Below, in pieces: positions 254 to 8,578 of a stretch of DNA of 35,084 bases. Position 1 is the stretch's first letter, and every line of letters starts with the position of its first letter. The notes below the pieces were generated by a model. The model was not told the DNA's origin, did not search any database, and worked only from the letters and a program-made list of their open reading frames with translations. The stretch comes from Pyrinomonadaceae bacterium (lineage in GTDB: Bacteria > Acidobacteriota > Blastocatellia > Pyrinomonadales > Pyrinomonadaceae). A program made the translations under genes and the position numbers. The stretch covers positions 1 through 35,084 of the forward strand of contig JAMQPI010000178.1 in assembly GCA_023717565.1 (NCBI GenBank), read 5' to 3'.

Positions 254-835
254 ATGAAGAAAATGCATTTGGTTGCGGGCCTGGCGCTGCTCGGACTGGC
301 GCTATCTGCATGTCAGCAGGAAGCGGGCACGCCGTCTACCACCAATACGAGCGCGACTTCCACGACCGCGGCCACCGGTAAGGAGGACCCAGCCGTGGTT
401 GAGGAGGTTAAGGCGGTGCTCCAAAAACATGACAAGGCGCTCAACGACAAAAACGTCGATGCCGTGCTGGCAACCTTCTCAAACGATCCGAGGACAGTAG
501 TGCTCGGCACCGGTGAGGGAGAGCGGTTTGTCGGGGAGCAGACAATCAGAGAAGCCTACACCGAAATATTTAGAGACTACGATCCCGGTACCTTGATTAC
601 CAACTGCGACTGGAAGACCGGAGGAGTTGATTCGGCCGGCACGACTGCGTGGGTCGCTGCAACCTGCCAGGCGCAGGACTCTCTGAAGAGCAAGAAGCGA
701 GAGTATGTGCTCAATGTTTCGGGGGCGCTCCGGAAGGAAGGGGACGGTTGGCGGTTTGTGATGCTTCATATGTCCAATGCAACCAACGCAACACCACCAA
801 CCGAGGCCAACGCGAAGAGTGCTGCCGCAAAGTAG
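254..835 (+). CDS. NTF2/SnoaL-like lipoprotein
   Basis: Predicted secreted lipoprotein of 193 residues. A lysine-containing N-terminus and hydrophobic stretch end in the lipobox LSAC, so the mature protein should be lipid-anchored. A low-complexity Ser/Thr/Ala linker follows, then a domain of about 125 residues with the SnoaL/DUF4440 (NTF2-like fold) pattern: a helical start (VLQKHDKALNDKNVDAVL), then LGTGEGERFVG and a C-terminal GDGWRFVMLHMS strand. Such domains bind small ligands or act as enzymes; no substrate can be named. I chose ATG 254 because AGGAGG sits six bases upstream at 242-247; the in-frame ATG at 239 would place that ribosome site inside the gene. It is preceded by promoter site 1. 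Confidence 0.82.
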   Translation: MKKMHLVAGLALLGLALSACQQEAGTPSTTNTSATSTTAATGKEDPAVVEEVKAVLQKHDKALNDKNVDAVLATFSNDPRTVVLGTGEGERFVGEQTIREAYTEIFRDYDPGTLITNCDWKTGGVDSAGTTAWVAATCQAQDSLKSKKREYVLNVSGALRKEGDGWRFVMLHMSNATNATPPTEANAKSAAAK

Positions 836-982: not shown

Positions 983-1315
983 ATGAGTGAAGAAAAGACA
1001 CATGAACAGGGAGCTGCGGAACCCAGTGAGCAGGAGTTGAAGAGTCGCAGAGATTTTCTGAAGAGTTTGGGGCGATGGTCATCAATTATCATCGGCGCAG
1101 CGGCAATGGGAGGGCTGATGCCACCCGAAGATGCTGCCGGGTGGGTTAACGGCAAGGCGGCGTGGGTTAACGGTCGCGGCGGGGGCGGTGGTGGCGCCGC
1201 GTGGGTGAACCGCTCTACCGGTTCGGCGGGTTGGGTGAACCGGGGAGGCGGATGGATCAACGGTGGGGGCGCCGGTTGGGTGAATCGCAGAAGCAGCTGG
1301 GTTAATCGTCACTGA
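983..1315 (+). CDS. RiPP precursor with Tat-like leader and seven W-[VI]-N core motifs
   Basis: A 110-residue protein. Residues 1-20 are acidic. SRRDFLK (21-27) matches the twin-arginine consensus and is followed by a short hydrophobic stretch (34-46), so Tat export is likely. Residues 53-110 are Gly/Ala/Arg-rich and carry W-[VI]-N at W54, W61, W74, W84, W91, W99 and W106. Trp-X-Asn fits the aromatic-X-X motif that triceptide-type radical SAM/SPASM enzymes crosslink into three-residue cyclophanes (Xye, Grr and Fxs families). The region resembles GrrA-type glycine-rich precursors in composition, but I cannot assign it to a named family. ATG 983 has GGAGA seven bases upstream. The two maturation genes follow on the same strand after a strong hairpin. 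No cysteine is present, so thioether products are excluded. Confidence 0.8.
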   Translation: MSEEKTHEQGAAEPSEQELKSRRDFLKSLGRWSSIIIGAAAMGGLMPPEDAAGWVNGKAAWVNGRGGGGGGAAWVNRSTGSAGWVNRGGGWINGGGAGWVNRRSSWVNRH

Positions 1316-1345
1316 ACCAAATTCTGGCGCCGCAATGAAAACAGG

Positions 1346-1428
1346 AACACGATCCACGAAATCACACGAAACCACACGAAGCAAGGCAACCGTTTCGTGT
1401 GGTTTCGTGTGATTTCGTGGATCGTGTT
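1346..1428. repeat. Perfect 35-base inverted repeat between precursor and maturase genes
   Basis: Arms 1346-1380 and 1394-1428 are perfectly complementary with a 13-base loop, built from a CACGAA/TTCGTG-rich unit. The hairpin lies after the precursor stop (1315) and before the partner gene (1472). It is followed by TTTTCTCTTTTT, so it could partly terminate or stabilise the precursor transcript and set a high precursor-to-enzyme ratio. It may equally be a dispersed repeat. Confidence 0.8.
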
Positions 1429-1471
1429 TTCTCTTTTTCCCAGCCTTGGTCCGACAACAACTGCGGAAGTC

Positions 1472-2290
1472 ATGGACGCTCTTATCTACAACATTCCCGC
1501 TCGCCTGGTTGGAGCGTACCAAGGTCGCCGCGTGATCGTGCGTTCTCACGACCCCGCCGAACTAGCAGACTCTATTTCACAACTAAAACCGGATGACGTC
1601 CTTTACGGCCAACTGCTTTCCCTTGACGTGGATGTTACGCCATTAACAAACTGGGAACAGTCCTTCCCCCTTGATCTGGTCATGAGGGACCCGGCTGAGT
1701 TTCCACTCCTTTACCGCTTCTCACATTTGCTCGACAAGCACAGGATCAGAGTCTCGATTCCGGTTACAGCCGGATTCGCAAAAGCTGTCTGGCTGACGCT
1801 CGCGCTCCACTTCCCGGTGAAGTTGGAAGTTGGCCAGCCTGATCAGGAGCTGGTCGAAGAGTTGCATAAGGTCCTGGAGCTTTACCTTCATCGTTCCACT
1901 GTCTCCGAACCTGTTGAATACTTTCACAGCACCTTCCTCTCGTACTTCCATCAGGAACCGTCGAGCCTCTGGTTCATTCAGGAGGAAGACCCGGAGCAGA
2001 TTAGGTTCGTCTCCGATAATGGCGAAGAGAGCGTATCGAAACGACTGAAGGGATTGCCCTTCCCAAACCTGAATGATCTTCGGGCAGAAGCACAGCAACT
2101 GGGCGGCGAAAAGAGCGAGTGTGATGATTGCGAGTTCTTCGATCGCTGTGGCGGTTACTTCAAGTGGCCAAACAAAGACTTTAGTTGTGAGGGTGTAAAG
2201 ACTCTGTTCGGCACCATGAGAACTGCGGCCGCGGAGTTGCGAGCGGATCTCAATCGCGTTCCGATAGCACTGGGAGCACCACAGCGATGA
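1472..2290 (+). CDS. Radical-SAM partner protein with partial SPASM-like cysteine cluster
   Basis: A 272-residue protein, not assigned to a named family. There is no CxxxCxxC motif, so it should not cleave SAM by itself. The C-terminus has C217-x2-C220-x5-C226-x12-C239, including CGGYFKWP, which copies the CX2CX5C part of a SPASM/Twitch auxiliary cluster but lacks the usual CX3C. The rest looks like an alpha/beta scaffold and contains the paired phrases VGQPDQELVEELHKVLELYL and FPNLNDLRAEAQQLGG. It may be a catalytically dead radical-SAM-like subunit that binds precursor or supports electron transfer. I chose ATG 1472, with GGAAG just upstream, because the longer reading frame to 1397 starts inside the perfect hairpin. 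Its stop overlaps the next start as ATGA, implying translational coupling. Confidence 0.75.
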   Translation: MDALIYNIPARLVGAYQGRRVIVRSHDPAELADSISQLKPDDVLYGQLLSLDVDVTPLTNWEQSFPLDLVMRDPAEFPLLYRFSHLLDKHRIRVSIPVTAGFAKAVWLTLALHFPVKLEVGQPDQELVEELHKVLELYLHRSTVSEPVEYFHSTFLSYFHQEPSSLWFIQEEDPEQIRFVSDNGEESVSKRLKGLPFPNLNDLRAEAQQLGGEKSECDDCEFFDRCGGYFKWPNKDFSCEGVKTLFGTMRTAAAELRADLNRVPIALGAPQR

Positions 2291-3534
2291 TGAAAAATCA
2301 CCTCTCGATAATTTTCCTCCCCACCAACAAGTGCAATGTAAATTGTGAATACTGCTTTGAGGACAAGACAGACGACCGGATGACGCTCAACCAACTGACG
2401 CACGTCACCAATAAGATTTTTGATTTTCTTGATGAAAGCGACATCAGTGCATTGACGCTTCACTGGCAGGGAGGCGAGATCATGACGATGCCTCCGAGTT
2501 GGTTTGAAGAGGCCCATGAAGCGATCGATGCCCTTGCCAAGGCCCGGAACAAAAAGGTCGATCATGGCCTGCAAACGAACATGATCGCCTACTCGCCGCG
2601 CTGGAATAAGGTAATTGCTAACATGTTCGGCAACAGTGTCGGCACCTCAATGGACTATCCAAATCTCTACCGCAAGATGTTTACTGCCGGCCCCGATGAA
2701 TACACCAGAATTTGGAAGCGAAATGTTCGGACTGCGCGAGATGCCGGAATCAAGGTCGGTGTGATCGCTGTCCCCAACCAGGCGACCCTCGCTGTTGGCG
2801 CCGAGGCCTTCTACTCTTTCTTTGTTGATGAGTTAGGCATTACTGATTTTCAGGTCAATACTCCTTTTCCAGGCGGCGAGCAAAACGGCGTGAAAAAGGA
2901 TCTGGCGCTCGAGAACGAAGAGTTGAGCCGGTTCTTCGTCGACCTGGCGGATATCTGGGCGGACCGCGGACGCGACGCAGGCGTCAAGCTTGGCCCAATC
3001 GATCAGCTGGTCGAATACTTTTCCGGCGAGCCGAGTTGCTTGCCCTGCATCTGGCAGACGAATTGTGCGGACGAGTTCATTTCGATCGACGCGCGTGGCC
3101 ACGTCGCACAGTGTGACTGCTGGGTTACCAGCTACCCCGAGTACTTCTTCGGAAACATCTTCGACCCCGGATCACTTGCTGATTTGCTCAAGAACAGTCC
3201 GGCTCGCAAGCAATTCCTCGAGCGACCGGCGAAGATTCTTGATCAAGGATGCATCGAGTGTGACTACCTGTCGCTTTGCCACGGCGGCTGTCCCGTCAGG
3301 ACTTACACCTTCCGCAATACTCTGTTTGAGAAAGACCCGTACTGCCAACTTTACAAGAACCTGTTTCGACATACCGAAGAATTGGCGGCTATACTTGCCG
3401 GCGATCAATTTCTGCCTGCCGGTTCTCTACGTGCTCAACGCGGAAAGTCGTGTAGCAGCCACACGGCGATCGACAATGATTTGTCCTGGCAGGTCGGGCC
3501 GCTCGTGCAGATCGACCGTCGCCGCAGTCTGTAA
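2287..3534 (+). CDS. Radical SAM/SPASM peptide maturase
   Basis: A 415-residue radical SAM enzyme. The SAM-cluster motif is C16-x3-C20-x2-C23 (CNVNCEYC). The SPASM region is complete: C260-x10-G271-x4-C276, then C322-x2-C325-x5-C331-x3-C335 and C353, enough for two auxiliary 4Fe-4S clusters as in anSME, GrrM and XyeB-type enzymes. Given the upstream precursor with W-[VI]-N repeats, the likely role is C-C crosslinking of Trp to Asn side chains; this is inference. The gene overlaps the partner gene by four bases. An alternative is anaerobic sulfatase maturation, since anSME has similar length and motifs and a CSPTR sulfatase lies downstream, but the coupling to the partner and precursor favours peptide maturation. 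Confidence 0.88.
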   Translation: MMKNHLSIIFLPTNKCNVNCEYCFEDKTDDRMTLNQLTHVTNKIFDFLDESDISALTLHWQGGEIMTMPPSWFEEAHEAIDALAKARNKKVDHGLQTNMIAYSPRWNKVIANMFGNSVGTSMDYPNLYRKMFTAGPDEYTRIWKRNVRTARDAGIKVGVIAVPNQATLAVGAEAFYSFFVDELGITDFQVNTPFPGGEQNGVKKDLALENEELSRFFVDLADIWADRGRDAGVKLGPIDQLVEYFSGEPSCLPCIWQTNCADEFISIDARGHVAQCDCWVTSYPEYFFGNIFDPGSLADLLKNSPARKQFLERPAKILDQGCIECDYLSLCHGGCPVRTYTFRNTLFEKDPYCQLYKNLFRHTEELAAILAGDQFLPAGSLRAQRGKSCSSHTAIDNDLSWQVGPLVQIDRRRSL

Positions 3535-3650: not shown

Positions 3651-6026
3651 ATGTCAACAAGTCGCAAGATCCGATTTGCACATCTGCTGCTTTTTACAAT
3701 TGCCGCGCTGACCTTTGGTTGTAATCAACCGACGGAAGAGACTGCTACTTCCAATAGTGCGGCATCCGATAAATTAGACCGCACAGTCCTACCGATCCCT
3801 GAACCAAAGAGGCAAACCTACAAGGAGTTGGATGCCCGAAATGCAAAAGCACCGGCACGATGGGAAGTGAAAGCCCCCGAGGGAGCCCCGAACGTAGTCG
3901 TCGTATTAGTCGACGATATAGGTTTTGGGGCCTCTGCCGCTTTTGGCGGACCAATCAATATGCCCAATCTGGATAAGGTCGCCGCCACAGGACTCAAGTA
4001 CAACCGCTTTCACACTACTGCATTGTGCTCACCGACACGCGTTGCGTTGCTCACCGGTTACAACCATCACAGCAACAATGCGGGATCGATCATGGAAACC
4101 TCGACGGCATTTCCGGGCAATACCGGCGTCAGGCCCCAGTCGATAACTCCGATGGCTGAAGTTCTCAGGCAGAATGGATTCAGCACGGCGGCCTTTGGCA
4201 AGTATCACGAAACGCCGCCTTGGGAGATCTCGGCGGCCGGGCCATACGACCGTTGGCCGACACATTCCGGGTTTGAAAAATTCTACGGCTTTATCGGCGG
4301 CGAGACGAACCAGTATGCACCGCTGGTCTACGACGGGACCGCTCAGGTCGAGCTTCCGGAAGATCCGAAATATCATTTCACGACCGATATGACCAACCAG
4401 GCAATGTCGTGGATGAAATTCCAGAAAGCGTTGAGCCCGGACAAGCCGTTCTATATCTATTTCGCACCCGGTGCGACTCATGCACCGCATCATGTTCCAG
4501 CCGAGTGGCGTGACAAGTACAAGGGCAAGTTCGATCAGGGCTGGGACAAGGTTAGAGAAGAAACCCTGGCTCGCCAGATCAAACTCGGTGTAGTACCGGC
4601 TGGAACAAAGCTCGCTCCGAAACACAAAGACATCAAAGATTGGACGGCGCTGTCGGCGGACGAGAAAAAGCTGTTCACCCGGCAGATGGAGACATATGCA
4701 GGCTTTGCCGAACATACCGACAACGAGATCGGCAGACTTTACAGTGCCATTGAAGAAGTTGGGCAAGCGGACAATACATTGTTTGTCTACATCGTCGGCG
4801 ACAACGGCGCCAGCGCCGAAGGTCAAATGAACGGGACGTTCAATGAGATGTCGTTTTTCAATGCTGCGCCGGAAACTGTAGCGGGTATGTTGGAGCATTA
4901 TGACGAGTGGGGCGGCCCAAGCACGTATCCGCATTATCCTGCGGGATGGGCAGTTGCCATGGATACTCCGTTCACTTATACCAAGCAGGTGGCCTCTGAC
5001 TTTGGCGGCACGCGTAACGGAATGGTGATCCATTGGCCAAAAGGAATTAAGGCAAAGGGCGAGGTTCGGTCGCAGTTTGGTCATGTGGTCGATATCGCTC
5101 CAACAGTTTACGAGGTCGCCAAGATCCCGGCCCCAAAAAAGGTGAACGGAATAGATCAGGATCCACTTGAAGGCAAGAGCCTGGTTTATTCGTTTGATAA
5201 TGCCGGTGCGAAGGAGACACATACCGTTCAGTATTTCGAGATGTTCGGAAACCGCGCTATCTACGCCGACGGTTGGTATGCGCGTACTATCCACAGGCCG
5301 GCGTGGAGAGGAAAGGCCGACCAGTCGCTTTTGGAGGATCCGTGGGATCTTTACAATTCTAACGATGACTTCAGCCTGTCGAACAACGTCGCCACCACTA
5401 ACGCGGACAAGCTGAAGGAACTCCAGGCACTGTTCATGACTGAGGCTGAGAAATATCACGTGCTGCCGATCGACGACCGGCTGCTGGAAAGGACCAACGC
5501 CGAACTTGTCGGCAGGCCGACGGTAATGGAAGGACGCAACACCGTCACGTACGGGCCGGGCATGAAAGGCATGGGCGTCGATATCTTCATCGCCACCCCG
5601 GGCAAGTCTTATACGATGACGGCCAATGTCGATGTTAAGGCAGGAGATAACGGTGTGATCGTCGCTCAAGGTGGTAGGTTTGGAGGATTCTCGTTCTATC
5701 TAAAGGGCGGTAAACCGGCATTTACTTACAACTATCTAGGTCTCGAGAAGTGGGACGTAATCTCGTCACAAGCCCTGAGCCCGGGTAATCACATTGTCGT
5801 TTACGAGTTCAAATCCGATGGCGGACTGGGAAAAGGCGGAGTCGGAACGATCACTGTCGACGGAAACAAGGTCGGCGAGGGGCGCATCGCCAAGACTCAG
5901 CCGGGCATTTTCTCAGTTGATGACCTTGCTGACGTCGGCACCGATGACGGAACCCAAGTGACGGACTACGGCGGGTCTCGTAAGTTTACGGGCACGCTCA
6001 ATAGGGTAACTATCGTAACCAAATAG
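3651..6026 (+). CDS. Arylsulfatase lipoprotein (formylglycine-dependent)
   Basis: A 791-residue type I sulfatase of the alkaline-phosphatase superfamily. The N-terminus is a lipoprotein signal with lipobox LTFGC (Cys24). The domain opens with NVVVVLVDDIGFG, whose paired aspartates bind calcium. The active-site motif is C126-S-P-T-R followed by VALLTG; Cys126 would be oxidised to formylglycine. GDNG near residues 383-386 supplies further metal ligands. The last 170 residues (from GPGMKGMGVDIF) form a beta-rich LamG-like domain seen in long bacterial arylsulfatases. The substrate is unknown. AGGAG lies nine bases before ATG 3651. Its promoter carries the shared element, and a strong terminator follows at 6048. 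No FGE-type maturase is present in the window. Confidence 0.95.
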   Translation: MSTSRKIRFAHLLLFTIAALTFGCNQPTEETATSNSAASDKLDRTVLPIPEPKRQTYKELDARNAKAPARWEVKAPEGAPNVVVVLVDDIGFGASAAFGGPINMPNLDKVAATGLKYNRFHTTALCSPTRVALLTGYNHHSNNAGSIMETSTAFPGNTGVRPQSITPMAEVLRQNGFSTAAFGKYHETPPWEISAAGPYDRWPTHSGFEKFYGFIGGETNQYAPLVYDGTAQVELPEDPKYHFTTDMTNQAMSWMKFQKALSPDKPFYIYFAPGATHAPHHVPAEWRDKYKGKFDQGWDKVREETLARQIKLGVVPAGTKLAPKHKDIKDWTALSADEKKLFTRQMETYAGFAEHTDNEIGRLYSAIEEVGQADNTLFVYIVGDNGASAEGQMNGTFNEMSFFNAAPETVAGMLEHYDEWGGPSTYPHYPAGWAVAMDTPFTYTKQVASDFGGTRNGMVIHWPKGIKAKGEVRSQFGHVVDIAPTVYEVAKIPAPKKVNGIDQDPLEGKSLVYSFDNAGAKETHTVQYFEMFGNRAIYADGWYARTIHRPAWRGKADQSLLEDPWDLYNSNDDFSLSNNVATTNADKLKELQALFMTEAEKYHVLPIDDRLLERTNAELVGRPTVMEGRNTVTYGPGMKGMGVDIFIATPGKSYTMTANVDVKAGDNGVIVAQGGRFGGFSFYLKGGKPAFTYNYLGLEKWDVISSQALSPGNHIVVYEFKSDGGLGKGGVGTITVDGNKVGEGRIAKTQPGIFSVDDLADVGTDDGTQVTDYGGSRKFTGTLNRVTIVTK

Positions 6027-6925: not shown

Positions 6926-8578
6926 ATGATTCTCAAATACAAACCAATGTCGGCAAGACGAAGCCGCTCCAAGTTCGTCTTATTCGCGGCAGCGTGTGTG
7001 ATGAGTGCGTTGGCCGCCTATCTGATGGCGGTTCCAGGTCCAACCCGGGCGGCGAATAGCGCACCTCAGCCCAAGAAACCAAACATCCTCGTACTGTTCG
7101 GGGACGACATCGGCATGTGGAACGTCAGCGCGTACAACCGCGGGATGATGGGCTACCGCACGCCCAACATAGATCGCATCGCGAAGGAAGGCGCGATCTT
7201 CACTGACGTCTACGCGCAGCAGAGTTGCACGGCCGGGCGTGCGGCGTTCATCACCGGCCAGTCGCCGATCCGCACCGGCCTGCTGAAGGTCGGTCTCCCG
7301 GGCGCTCCCGAAGGGCTCCACGCCGAGGACCCGACGATCGCCAACTTGCTGAAGGCGCAAGGCTATGCGACCGGCCAGTTCGGCAAGAACCATCTGGGCG
7401 ATCGCAACGAATTCATCCCGACGGTACACGGCTTCGACGAGTTCTTCGGCAACTTCTACCACCTGAACGCCGAAGAGGAGCCTGAGCAACCCGACTATCC
7501 AAAAGATCCGAAATTTAAGGAGCGCTTTGGCCCGCGCGGCGTATTCCATTGCTTCGCGACGGACACTGACAGCACACTCCCCGACGACGGTCGTTTCGGG
7601 AAGTGGGGCAAGCAGCGCTGCGACGACACCGGCCCGCTGACCAAGAAGCGGATGGAAACCGTCGACGAGGAAGTGCTCGCCGAGACCACGAAGTTTATTG
7701 ACAAGAAGCAGCAGGAAGGCAAGCCATGGTTCGTCTGGTTCAACACGACCCGTATGCACATCCACACCCACCTCAAGCCGGAGTCGAAGGGCAAGACGGG
7801 GTTGGGAACGGCCCCGGACGGAATGGTCGAGCATGATGGGCACATCGGGCAACTGCTGAAGAAACTGGACGACATGGGCATCGTTGACAACACGATCGTG
7901 ATCTGGACGACGGACAACGGTGCCGAGGTATTCAGCTGGCCCGACGGCGGCACCACGCCGTTTCGTGGCGAGAAGAACTCGAACTGGGAGGGCGGCTATC
8001 GCGTGCCGCTGGTCGTCCGCTGGCCCGGCGTGATCAAGCCCGGAACCGAGATCAACGAGATTATTTCTCACGAGGACTGGCTGCCAACACTGCTGGCCGC
8101 GGCTGGCCAACCCAACGTTAAGGAGTCGGCCCTGACCGGGTTGAAGGCAGGCGCATCGACCTACAAGGTCCACTTCGACGGGTACAACCTGCTGCCGTAC
8201 TTCAAGGGTGAGACGACGGTTTGGCCGCGCCACGAGTTCATGTACTGGACCGACGACGGCGACCCGGCCGGTTTGCGTTTCAACCAATGGAAAATGGTCT
8301 TTCTCGACCAGCGCGCGGTAGGTTTCAACGTCTGGCAAGACCCGCTGGTTGTGCTACGGTTCCCCAAGCTGTTCAACCTCCGCTCGGATCCGTTTGAGCG
8401 TGGCGAGCAGACCGCCGGCTACGTTGACTTTCGTGTCAATCACGCTTTCCTGGTAGGTCCGGCCATCGGATACGCCGCCGTGTGGATCCAGAGCTTCAAG
8501 GATTACCCGCCGCGTTCGAAGCCTGGGAGTTTCAACCTCAGTCAGGTGATGGACAAGCTGTCCAAGCCATCGCAGTAG
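6926..8578 (+). CDS. Sulfatase with CTAGR active-site motif
   Basis: A 550-residue type I sulfatase with an N-terminal membrane/signal segment (about residues 17-42). NILVLFGDDIGMWN gives the metal-binding aspartates; C101-T-A-G-R followed by AAFITGQ is the formylglycine site in its CxAxR variant; TDNGAE supplies the later metal ligands. HxHxH-rich RMHIHTHLK fits the sulfate-binding histidine region. The substrate is unknown. Base composition is richer in GC than the upstream sulfatase (41 of 60 bases at 7201-7260 against 33 of 60 at 4501-4560), which may reflect transfer. A GGAG lies 11 bases before ATG 6926, so the in-frame ATG at 6947 is a possible alternative start. Confidence 0.93.
   Translation: MILKYKPMSARRSRSKFVLFAAACVMSALAAYLMAVPGPTRAANSAPQPKKPNILVLFGDDIGMWNVSAYNRGMMGYRTPNIDRIAKEGAIFTDVYAQQSCTAGRAAFITGQSPIRTGLLKVGLPGAPEGLHAEDPTIANLLKAQGYATGQFGKNHLGDRNEFIPTVHGFDEFFGNFYHLNAEEEPEQPDYPKDPKFKERFGPRGVFHCFATDTDSTLPDDGRFGKWGKQRCDDTGPLTKKRMETVDEEVLAETTKFIDKKQQEGKPWFVWFNTTRMHIHTHLKPESKGKTGLGTAPDGMVEHDGHIGQLLKKLDDMGIVDNTIVIWTTDNGAEVFSWPDGGTTPFRGEKNSNWEGGYRVPLVVRWPGVIKPGTEINEIISHEDWLPTLLAAAGQPNVKESALTGLKAGASTYKVHFDGYNLLPYFKGETTVWPRHEFMYWTDDGDPAGLRFNQWKMVFLDQRAVGFNVWQDPLVVLRFPKLFNLRSDPFERGEQTAGYVDFRVNHAFLVGPAIGYAAVWIQSFKDYPPRSKPGSFNLSQVMDKLSKPSQ

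Follow-up and report, generated by a model that had tools for sequence, protein, structure and literature searches.

A Tat-type leader, a W-x-N repeat peptide and a predicted pseudo-radical-SAM partner: a conserved gene set of predicted triceptide kind

Described systems closest to the locus

Certain radical S-adenosylmethionine (SAM)/SPASM enzymes cross-link tryptophan to asparagine within a peptide, giving the three-residue cyclophanes of the triceptides. According to one review, the indole carbon that becomes bonded to the C-beta of the Asn at i+2 is C6 with XncB and C7 with OscB (PMC11002830). The locus considered here lies near the start of a 35,084-nucleotide stretch of DNA from a Pyrinomonadaceae bacterium (GCA_023717565.1, contig JAMQPI010000178.1), referred to as the window. 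Genes for a SnoaL-fold secreted protein, a precursor peptide with repeated W-x-N motifs, a pseudo-radical-SAM partner and a radical SAM/SPASM enzyme follow one another in it (Table 1). These genes probably encode a system for a ribosomally synthesized and post-translationally modified peptide (RiPP) of the triceptide kind, in which the enzyme and an obligate partner subunit would make one Trp-Asn C-C ring per W-x-N motif and the product would be exported by twin-arginine translocation (Tat).

The GrrA/GrrM systems (OscA/OscB; TIGR04260/TIGR04261) are known from cyanobacteria. Like the present locus, they combine a Gly-rich repeat core with a SPASM radical SAM enzyme, and OscB is described in the same review as linking Trp C7 to the C-beta of Asn or Asp (PMC11002830). 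The window enzyme reaches 91.3 bits (91.4 in a second search) against a GrrM cut-off of 310, and the window precursor 13.6 bits against a GrrA cut-off of 31; the GrrA model matched three of ten further precursors, the best at 16.0 bits. The present system differs from Grr in its Tat-type leader with a W-S site, its pseudo-radical-SAM partner and its SnoaL-fold gene, none of which is, to our knowledge, part of a Grr system.

XyeB (XncB), FxsB and YhhB are likewise SPASM radical SAM enzymes, and XncB forms Trp-Asn rings. The window enzyme scores 46.8, 37.4 and 50.3 bits against their models, below the cut-offs of 450, 370 and 445. AmcA/AmcB resembles the present system, judging by name, in placing several cyclophanes in one peptide; AmcA weakly matches the precursor of one related locus (L021; 14.7 bits, cut-off 40) and AmcB the window enzyme (85.3 bits, cut-off 425). 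The dynobactin and darobactin maturases DynA and DarE share Trp cross-linking, and DynA gives the top NCBIfam score for the enzyme among the matches listed (148.8 bits, cut-off 450). The product type and precursor of the DynA and DarE systems are unlike those found here. DynA is followed by the anaerobic sulfatase maturase model (anSME, TIGR03942; 136.7 bits, cut-off 349.45) and then by GrrM, and among the best 25 of 65 matches no full-length family exceeds its cut-off; the SPASM domain model alone does.

The pairing of an active radical SAM enzyme with a dead or incomplete one has precedents in pseudo-radical-SAM/SPASM proteins such as TIGR04347, with TIGR04150 and the GeoRSP SPASM protein as further examples. 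None of these models is among the matches of 38 partners. Two radical SAM-type chains also form one maturase, a heteromeric sactisynthase, in thuricin CD, where TrnC and TrnD are described as acting as one complex, the CX3CX2C site of TrnD is dispensable and a model places TrnD on the leader (PMC12093266). TrnD nevertheless keeps its cluster and cleaves SAM, and the TrnC/TrnD chemistry yields thioethers, whereas CX3CX2C is absent from the present partner in 54 of 54 partner loci.

The first-pass annotation knew of no described family that combined such a precursor and partner. In NCBIfam release 20.0, no full-length model reached its cut-off for the window precursor among the matches listed, nor for ten further precursors out of 69, and the partner gave weak matches only. 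A full-text literature search, with the principal triceptide papers outside its reach, gave among the papers listed no title or abstract on a Tat/W-x-N system with a pseudo-radical-SAM partner, and an earlier mention in a sequence network is possible.

Table 1. Positions of the features in the window
Feature	Positions	Strand	Basis
Secreted protein of SnoaL fold; in the window a lipoprotein (LSAC lipobox read by eye)	254..835	+	Pfam SnoaL_3 E 6.4e-13, over cut-off
Precursor peptide, 110 aa	983..1315	+	Open reading frame; profile from 5 orthologues
Tat-type motif SRRDFLKSLGRWS in leader	1043..1081	+	Trp at RR+10 conserved; tatC in genome
Repeat core with W-[VI]-N seven times, each a predicted site of a three-residue cyclophane	1139..1312	+	
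Pseudo-radical-SAM partner, 272 aa, without CX3CX2C	1472..2290	+	Alignments, AlphaFold2 model, Foldseek
Four-Cys tail of partner, C-x2-C-x5-C-x12-C (probable auxiliary Fe-S site)	2120..2188	+	
Radical SAM/SPASM peptide maturase, 415 aa	2287..3534	+	Pfam Radical_SAM and the SPASM domain model TIGR04085 of NCBIfam, both above cut-off
CX3CX2C radical SAM cluster motif CNVNCEYC	2332..2355	+	3 Cys in 70/70
SPASM Cys set C254, C260, C276, C322, C325, C331, C335, C353, and C278	3046..3345	+	Each 70/70

Co-occurrence and spread of the gene set

Within the family, the enzyme (E <= 1e-20), the partner and the precursor each occur in the same six of 119 genomes (G000, G302, G368, G369, G377 and G379), and the other 113 contain none of the three. 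Four of the five family relatives of the window (loci L008-L011) have the order SnoaL-like gene, precursor, partner, enzyme, with the W-x-N block beside the enzyme. In the fifth, G369, the enzyme is encoded on contig C344; contig C156 has the partner together with the precursor, whose match contains one stop codon. The nearest neighbours of the window enzyme are labelled Pyrinomonadaceae, Blastocatellia and Acidobacteria.

A wider set was obtained by a contig scan with the enzyme alignment and two peptide patterns, and its 78 confirmed loci are a lower bound. They are labelled Acidobacteriota, Pseudomonadota (Competibacteraceae, Chromatiaceae, Accumulibacter and Methylococcaceae), desulfobacterial lineages and Verrucomicrobiota, along with two assemblies labelled Eremiobacterota and one Hydrogenedentes. 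Bacteria from soil and water that belong to several distantly related phyla thus share the gene set. Its distribution is patchy, and for this reason a search for the partner in 297 genomes of the phylum picked out that of the window alone. Two loci labelled Synechococcaceae (L017) and Phycisphaerales (L019) sit on short contigs and nest within a Competibacteraceae clade; they are probably misbinned, and therefore no claim is made for Cyanobacteria or Planctomycetes.

The partner lies directly upstream of the enzyme in 47 of the 78 loci. A strict rule, under which R[RK]xFL must precede two or more W-x-[ND], recognizes a precursor in 56, the flanks covered being at most 6 kb on either side; the precursors of L047 and L073, whose leader differs slightly, fall outside this rule. 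Among the 47 partner loci the precursor is upstream in 41 and the full order SnoaL-precursor-partner-enzyme is kept in 35; the contigs of L066 and L072 begin inside the partner. The W-x-N block and the three-gene set, which the first-pass annotation had singled out in the window, are thus found again at related loci and in other genomes; absence of the block from orthologous loci had been named there as a possible refutation, and the reading withstands this check.

Further evidence for linkage comes from a supported clade of 25 enzymes, mostly labelled Competibacteraceae, that have no adjacent partner. A search with the partner profile found the partner elsewhere in all seven genomes of this clade that were searched; in genomes with an adjacent partner, the same profile found it in three of three. 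A W-x-N precursor stands immediately upstream of the distant partner in six of the seven split-operon genomes. By the strict rule a precursor is also near the enzyme in six of these seven genomes, and near 15 of the 25 clade enzymes. Since the precursor is found both beside the enzyme and beside the distant partner, the three components stay together in these genomes despite the operon split. An alternative in which the W-x-N peptide is exported unmodified, as a Gly/Arg-rich protein whose neighbours are incidental, is very improbable, given that all three genes share the same six family genomes and that precursors are linked separately to the enzyme and to the unlinked partner.

Some loci weigh against so close an association. 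A strict-rule precursor is missing in 22 of the 78, some of them cut by contig ends. L057 and L083 have partner and enzyme with no precursor upstream, and L088, a long-branch outgroup, has neither partner nor precursor. Seven loci of the Competibacteraceae clade with more than 4 kb downstream (L016, L018, L024, L027, L030, L037 and L044) show no precursor; L030, the one whose genome was examined further, has one beside its distant partner.

A SnoaL-fold protein, secreted by prediction, is the conserved fourth member of the set. A similar open reading frame (ORF) lies directly upstream of the precursor in L008-L011, and SnoaL-fold profiles match in 44 of the 78 wider loci. Neither this conserved upstream gene nor the Tat-type leader was named in the first-pass annotation. 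In Chthoniobacter, the SnoaL-fold protein (L075, 4242-4865) has an apparent Tat-like signal of its own, as read by eye.

Two sulfatases follow the gene set in the window, one (3651-6026) with a classical CSPTR site and the other (6926-8578) with CTAGR instead, both read by eye. They raise the possibility that the enzyme is an anaerobic sulfatase maturase which converts the active-site Cys of its neighbours to formylglycine, the peptide being unrelated; the first-pass annotation had named modification of the sulfatase as a possible refutation. The anSME model has no higher-scoring place in the window genome, the nearest solved structures of the enzyme by sequence are those of anSMEcpe (4k36, 4k37), the L010/L015 contig has an upstream sulfatase too (about 2.5 kb from the gene set in L010), and a similar ORF occurs about 10 kb upstream in L011. 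However, the anSME score is far below its cut-off, and a window-type sulfatase lies within 6 kb on either side in 2 of the 78 loci only, as against 56 for the precursor and 47 for the partner. The genome also encodes FGE-sulfatase-domain proteins, with four matches over the cut-off of this broad family. No sulfatase is found downstream of the enzyme in L008, L009 or L011, and the L010 contig ends just past the enzyme. On the low linkage, the scores and the FGE-sulfatase-domain proteins, sulfatase maturation is rejected as very improbable, and the sulfatase looks like a bystander.

The precursor family: repeat core and leader

Translation of the window precursor confirms the seven W-[VI]-N motifs that had been read at residues 54, 61, 74, 84, 91, 99 and 106. 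A charged N-terminal start is followed by SRRDFLKSLGRWS, a hydrophobic stretch and a Gly/Ala-rich core. No Trp or Asn of the core is stray, as all seven of each sit within motifs. In 200,000 shuffles of the 58 core residues, the maximum was five motifs, reached 22 times, and no shuffle gave six. An origin of the block as a DNA tandem-repeat artefact is rejected, because codons differ between motif copies (GTT or GTG for Val, ATC for Ile, AAC or AAT for Asn) and Tandem Repeats Finder reports no more than one weak 9-base row inside the gene. To either side of the precursor gene (845-960 and 1355-1420) lie short tandem repeats arranged as inverted pairs, CGTGAAT / TTCACGA and CACGAAACCA / GTTTCGTGTG; they are possibly hairpins or repeat elements.

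Motif statistics were taken from 69 precursors: 60 from the 56 strict-rule loci, 2 admitted by a relaxed rule, 6 beside distant partners and that of the window. These carry 2 to 17 motifs each, with a median of 6, and contain 555 Trp after the leader. The residue at +2 of Trp is Asn in 484 of 546 cases and otherwise mainly Gly (21), Asp (13), Pro (8), Ala (7) or Trp (7), some of the non-Asn cases falling within the signal sequence. The +1 position is variable (V127, I102, Y99, A67, G60, L24, N19, H17, F12 and others), and +3 is Arg in 369 of 545. Other aromatic residues rarely replace Trp ahead of x-N (Phe in 0 of 47, Tyr in 5 of 137, His in 1 of 78). Spacing between neighbouring motifs varies among precursors. 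An aromatic-x-residue motif is thus conserved at i and i+2, as in triceptides. An aromatic residue and an Asn that are both fixed, with any residue allowed between them, are the pattern expected of three-residue Trp-Asn cyclophanes. Selection itself demanded at least two W-x-[ND], so the Asn share at +2 is somewhat inflated, which tells against reading too much into its height.

The motif might also be modified in another way: Trp and Asn could be joined by a C-N or some other bond, neighbouring motifs could be linked to each other, or Asn alone could be changed, for example by epimerisation. The top-scoring family among the matches listed is DynA, and dynobactin holds one C-C and one C-N link (PMC11002830); Asp also takes the place of Asn in the 13 cases given above. 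Against this, residues kept strictly at i and i+2 around an unconstrained middle position are the triceptide signature, and the distance between motifs is not constant. Such other chemistry is rather unlikely, and C-C rings within each motif remain our preferred reading.

One Competibacteraceae assembly carries three different W-x-N precursors in tandem, with 6, 16 and 9 motifs (L031, 8003-9461). Verrucomicrobial precursors (L067, L070 and L074) have a repeat design of their own, in which W-G-P-R or W-G-G separates the W-[INF]-N motifs.

The leader is conserved beyond the features used to find it. In all 67 precursors with R[RK]xFL, the tenth residue beyond the first Arg is Trp, and the one next to it is Ser in 66 and Pro in the remaining one; neither residue was a selection criterion. 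From this W-S site to the first W-x-N the median distance is 22 residues in the 69 precursors, and an A-x-A lies between the two in 63. The genome of the window has tatC. Two curated TAT models score the window precursor below their cut-offs, at 12.2 and 11.6 bits against 16.7 and 22.7, and R[RK]xFL itself was the selection rule for most precursors. To judge from its conservation, the W-S site probably also contributes to recognition by the maturase. We infer that one stretch serves as both Tat signal and maturase recognition site, so that cross-linking in the cytoplasm would precede Tat export.

Enzyme, partner and proposed mechanism

The first-pass annotation described two overlapping genes downstream of the precursor, the second with CNVNCEYC and a full SPASM set, and this is borne out. 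The genes overlap by 4 bases, the enzyme ATG being at 2287 and the partner stop codon at 2288-2290. Twelve Cys (three of CX3CX2C, eight of SPASM type and C278) are invariant in all 70 aligned enzymes, which are those of the window and of 69 of the 78 loci, 9 partial loci being excluded. The enzyme cognate to the motif thus has the CX3CX2C and complete SPASM Cys of a triceptide maturase, and the Cys spacing matches that of anSMEcpe. CX3CX2C begins at residue 16, and the enzyme has no N-terminal recognition domain. The low NCBIfam scores count against a triceptide maturase: the enzyme is far under the triceptide maturase cut-offs, and the DynA and anSME models outscore GrrM and XyeB. The case for ring formation rests for this reason on motif logic and on kinship at the level of the superfamily.

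The partner was called a dead radical-SAM-like protein in the first-pass annotation. A confident predicted structure and the missing CX3CX2C support that description, and the sequence profiles do so weakly. Homology favours the ATG at 1472 as its likely start over an upstream GTG. The tail Cys are conserved in 41, 42, 42 and 41 of 42 aligned partners, with the last Cys about 12 residues after the third, and the same four-Cys pattern is present in all 12 partner loci left out of this alignment for coverage. They probably form an auxiliary Fe-S site, which in anSMEcpe numbering would correspond to the second auxiliary cluster. Pfam gives no match for the window partner, and NCBIfam gives none at E <= 0.1, its one weak match being HxsC in the region of the Cys motif (E 0.31). 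In Candidatus Accumulibacter contiguus (L043, 5158-6001), the partner gene is broken across two frames, by sequencing error or decay. A scan of viral contigs found no partner relative.

The AlphaFold2 model built from 38 partner sequences has a predicted local distance difference test (pLDDT) score of 91.6 and a predicted TM-score (pTM) of 0.89, and it supersedes a first model from 5 sequences (pLDDT 77.5). Foldseek results concern the best 50 matches per search. Two ChlB radical SAM chains alone reach probability 1.00, with TMq 0.54 and 0.61 and E 2.8e-3 and 6.7e-3; the earlier model matched anSME (0.98, TM-score 0.57) and CteB (0.99, TM-score 0.53). The partner could instead be a TIM-barrel-type protein that is unrelated to radical SAM enzymes and has a zinc site. 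Several results count in that direction and against a radical SAM origin. Transaldolase barrels have the lowest E-values among the matches listed (at TMq below 0.3), and no match has E <= 0.001. Family searches of 38 partners gave weak matches only, the best being HxsC at E 0.004 in seven members and a SPASM model in two, and the profile-profile match between partner and enzyme covers the Cys tail only (42 columns, probability 31%, E 5.2e-4). That match does align the Cys tail with the SPASM Cys of the enzyme, and the radical SAM/SPASM chains are the ones that join the best probability to the best TM-score. An unrelated barrel is therefore unlikely, and a degenerate radical SAM/SPASM protein is the likeliest identity on the predicted structure.

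In the proposed system, the enzyme would form a C-C bond between the Trp indole ring and the C-beta of the Asn two residues on in every W-x-N, giving up to seven rings in the window peptide and up to 17 in its relatives. The partner would be an obligate second subunit that lacks the SAM-cleaving site and retains the four-Cys site. As an N-terminal recognition domain is missing from the enzyme, leader binding would fall most naturally to the partner, which would most likely hold the leader and possibly also pass electrons. Auxiliary clusters can share in intermolecular electron transfer, as described for PapB (PMC10470005), and by analogy the probable auxiliary cluster of the partner may have this as an alternative or additional role. 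The stiffened, modified peptide would leave the cytoplasm by Tat on a signal that doubles as RiPP leader, with probable cleavage at the A-x-A site just ahead of the first motif, and would meet the co-encoded SnoaL-fold protein in the periplasm.

The conserved set of SnoaL gene, precursor, partner and enzyme includes no transporter, protease or immunity gene. For this reason, and given the Arg after most motifs and the co-encoded secreted protein, an envelope role appears likelier than that of a secreted antibiotic. A broader proposal can be put forward tentatively, although we would lean against it as a whole. It holds that the loci form a multi-phylum RiPP class in which the Tat signal is the leader, a single-cluster pseudo-radical-SAM subunit reads that leader and feeds electrons, and a poly-cyclophane "stiff rod" acts in the envelope with a SnoaL-fold receptor and not as an antibiotic.

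If the proposed system is correct, it would extend the triceptides by a widespread branch whose peptide is cross-linked first and then exported by a Tat-type route. Its apparently obligate dead radical SAM subunit would be a natural test of what an auxiliary cluster does alone, and the fixed secreted companion protein would be a third feature new to us. The precursors, whose motifs number up to 17 and leave the middle residue free, would amount to a natural substrate library for iterative ring formation. The cultured hosts Lamprocystis purpurea, Thiorhodococcus minor and Chthoniobacter flavus have the gene set, which is directly testable in them.

The window comes from a fragmented assembly of 6.9 Mb in 735 contigs. 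At the start of its contig (1-115) lies an inverted repeat, read by eye, with two complementary arms of about 30 bases (GGCGGCAAGGCTTTGCGCGACGCCGCTTTGG...).

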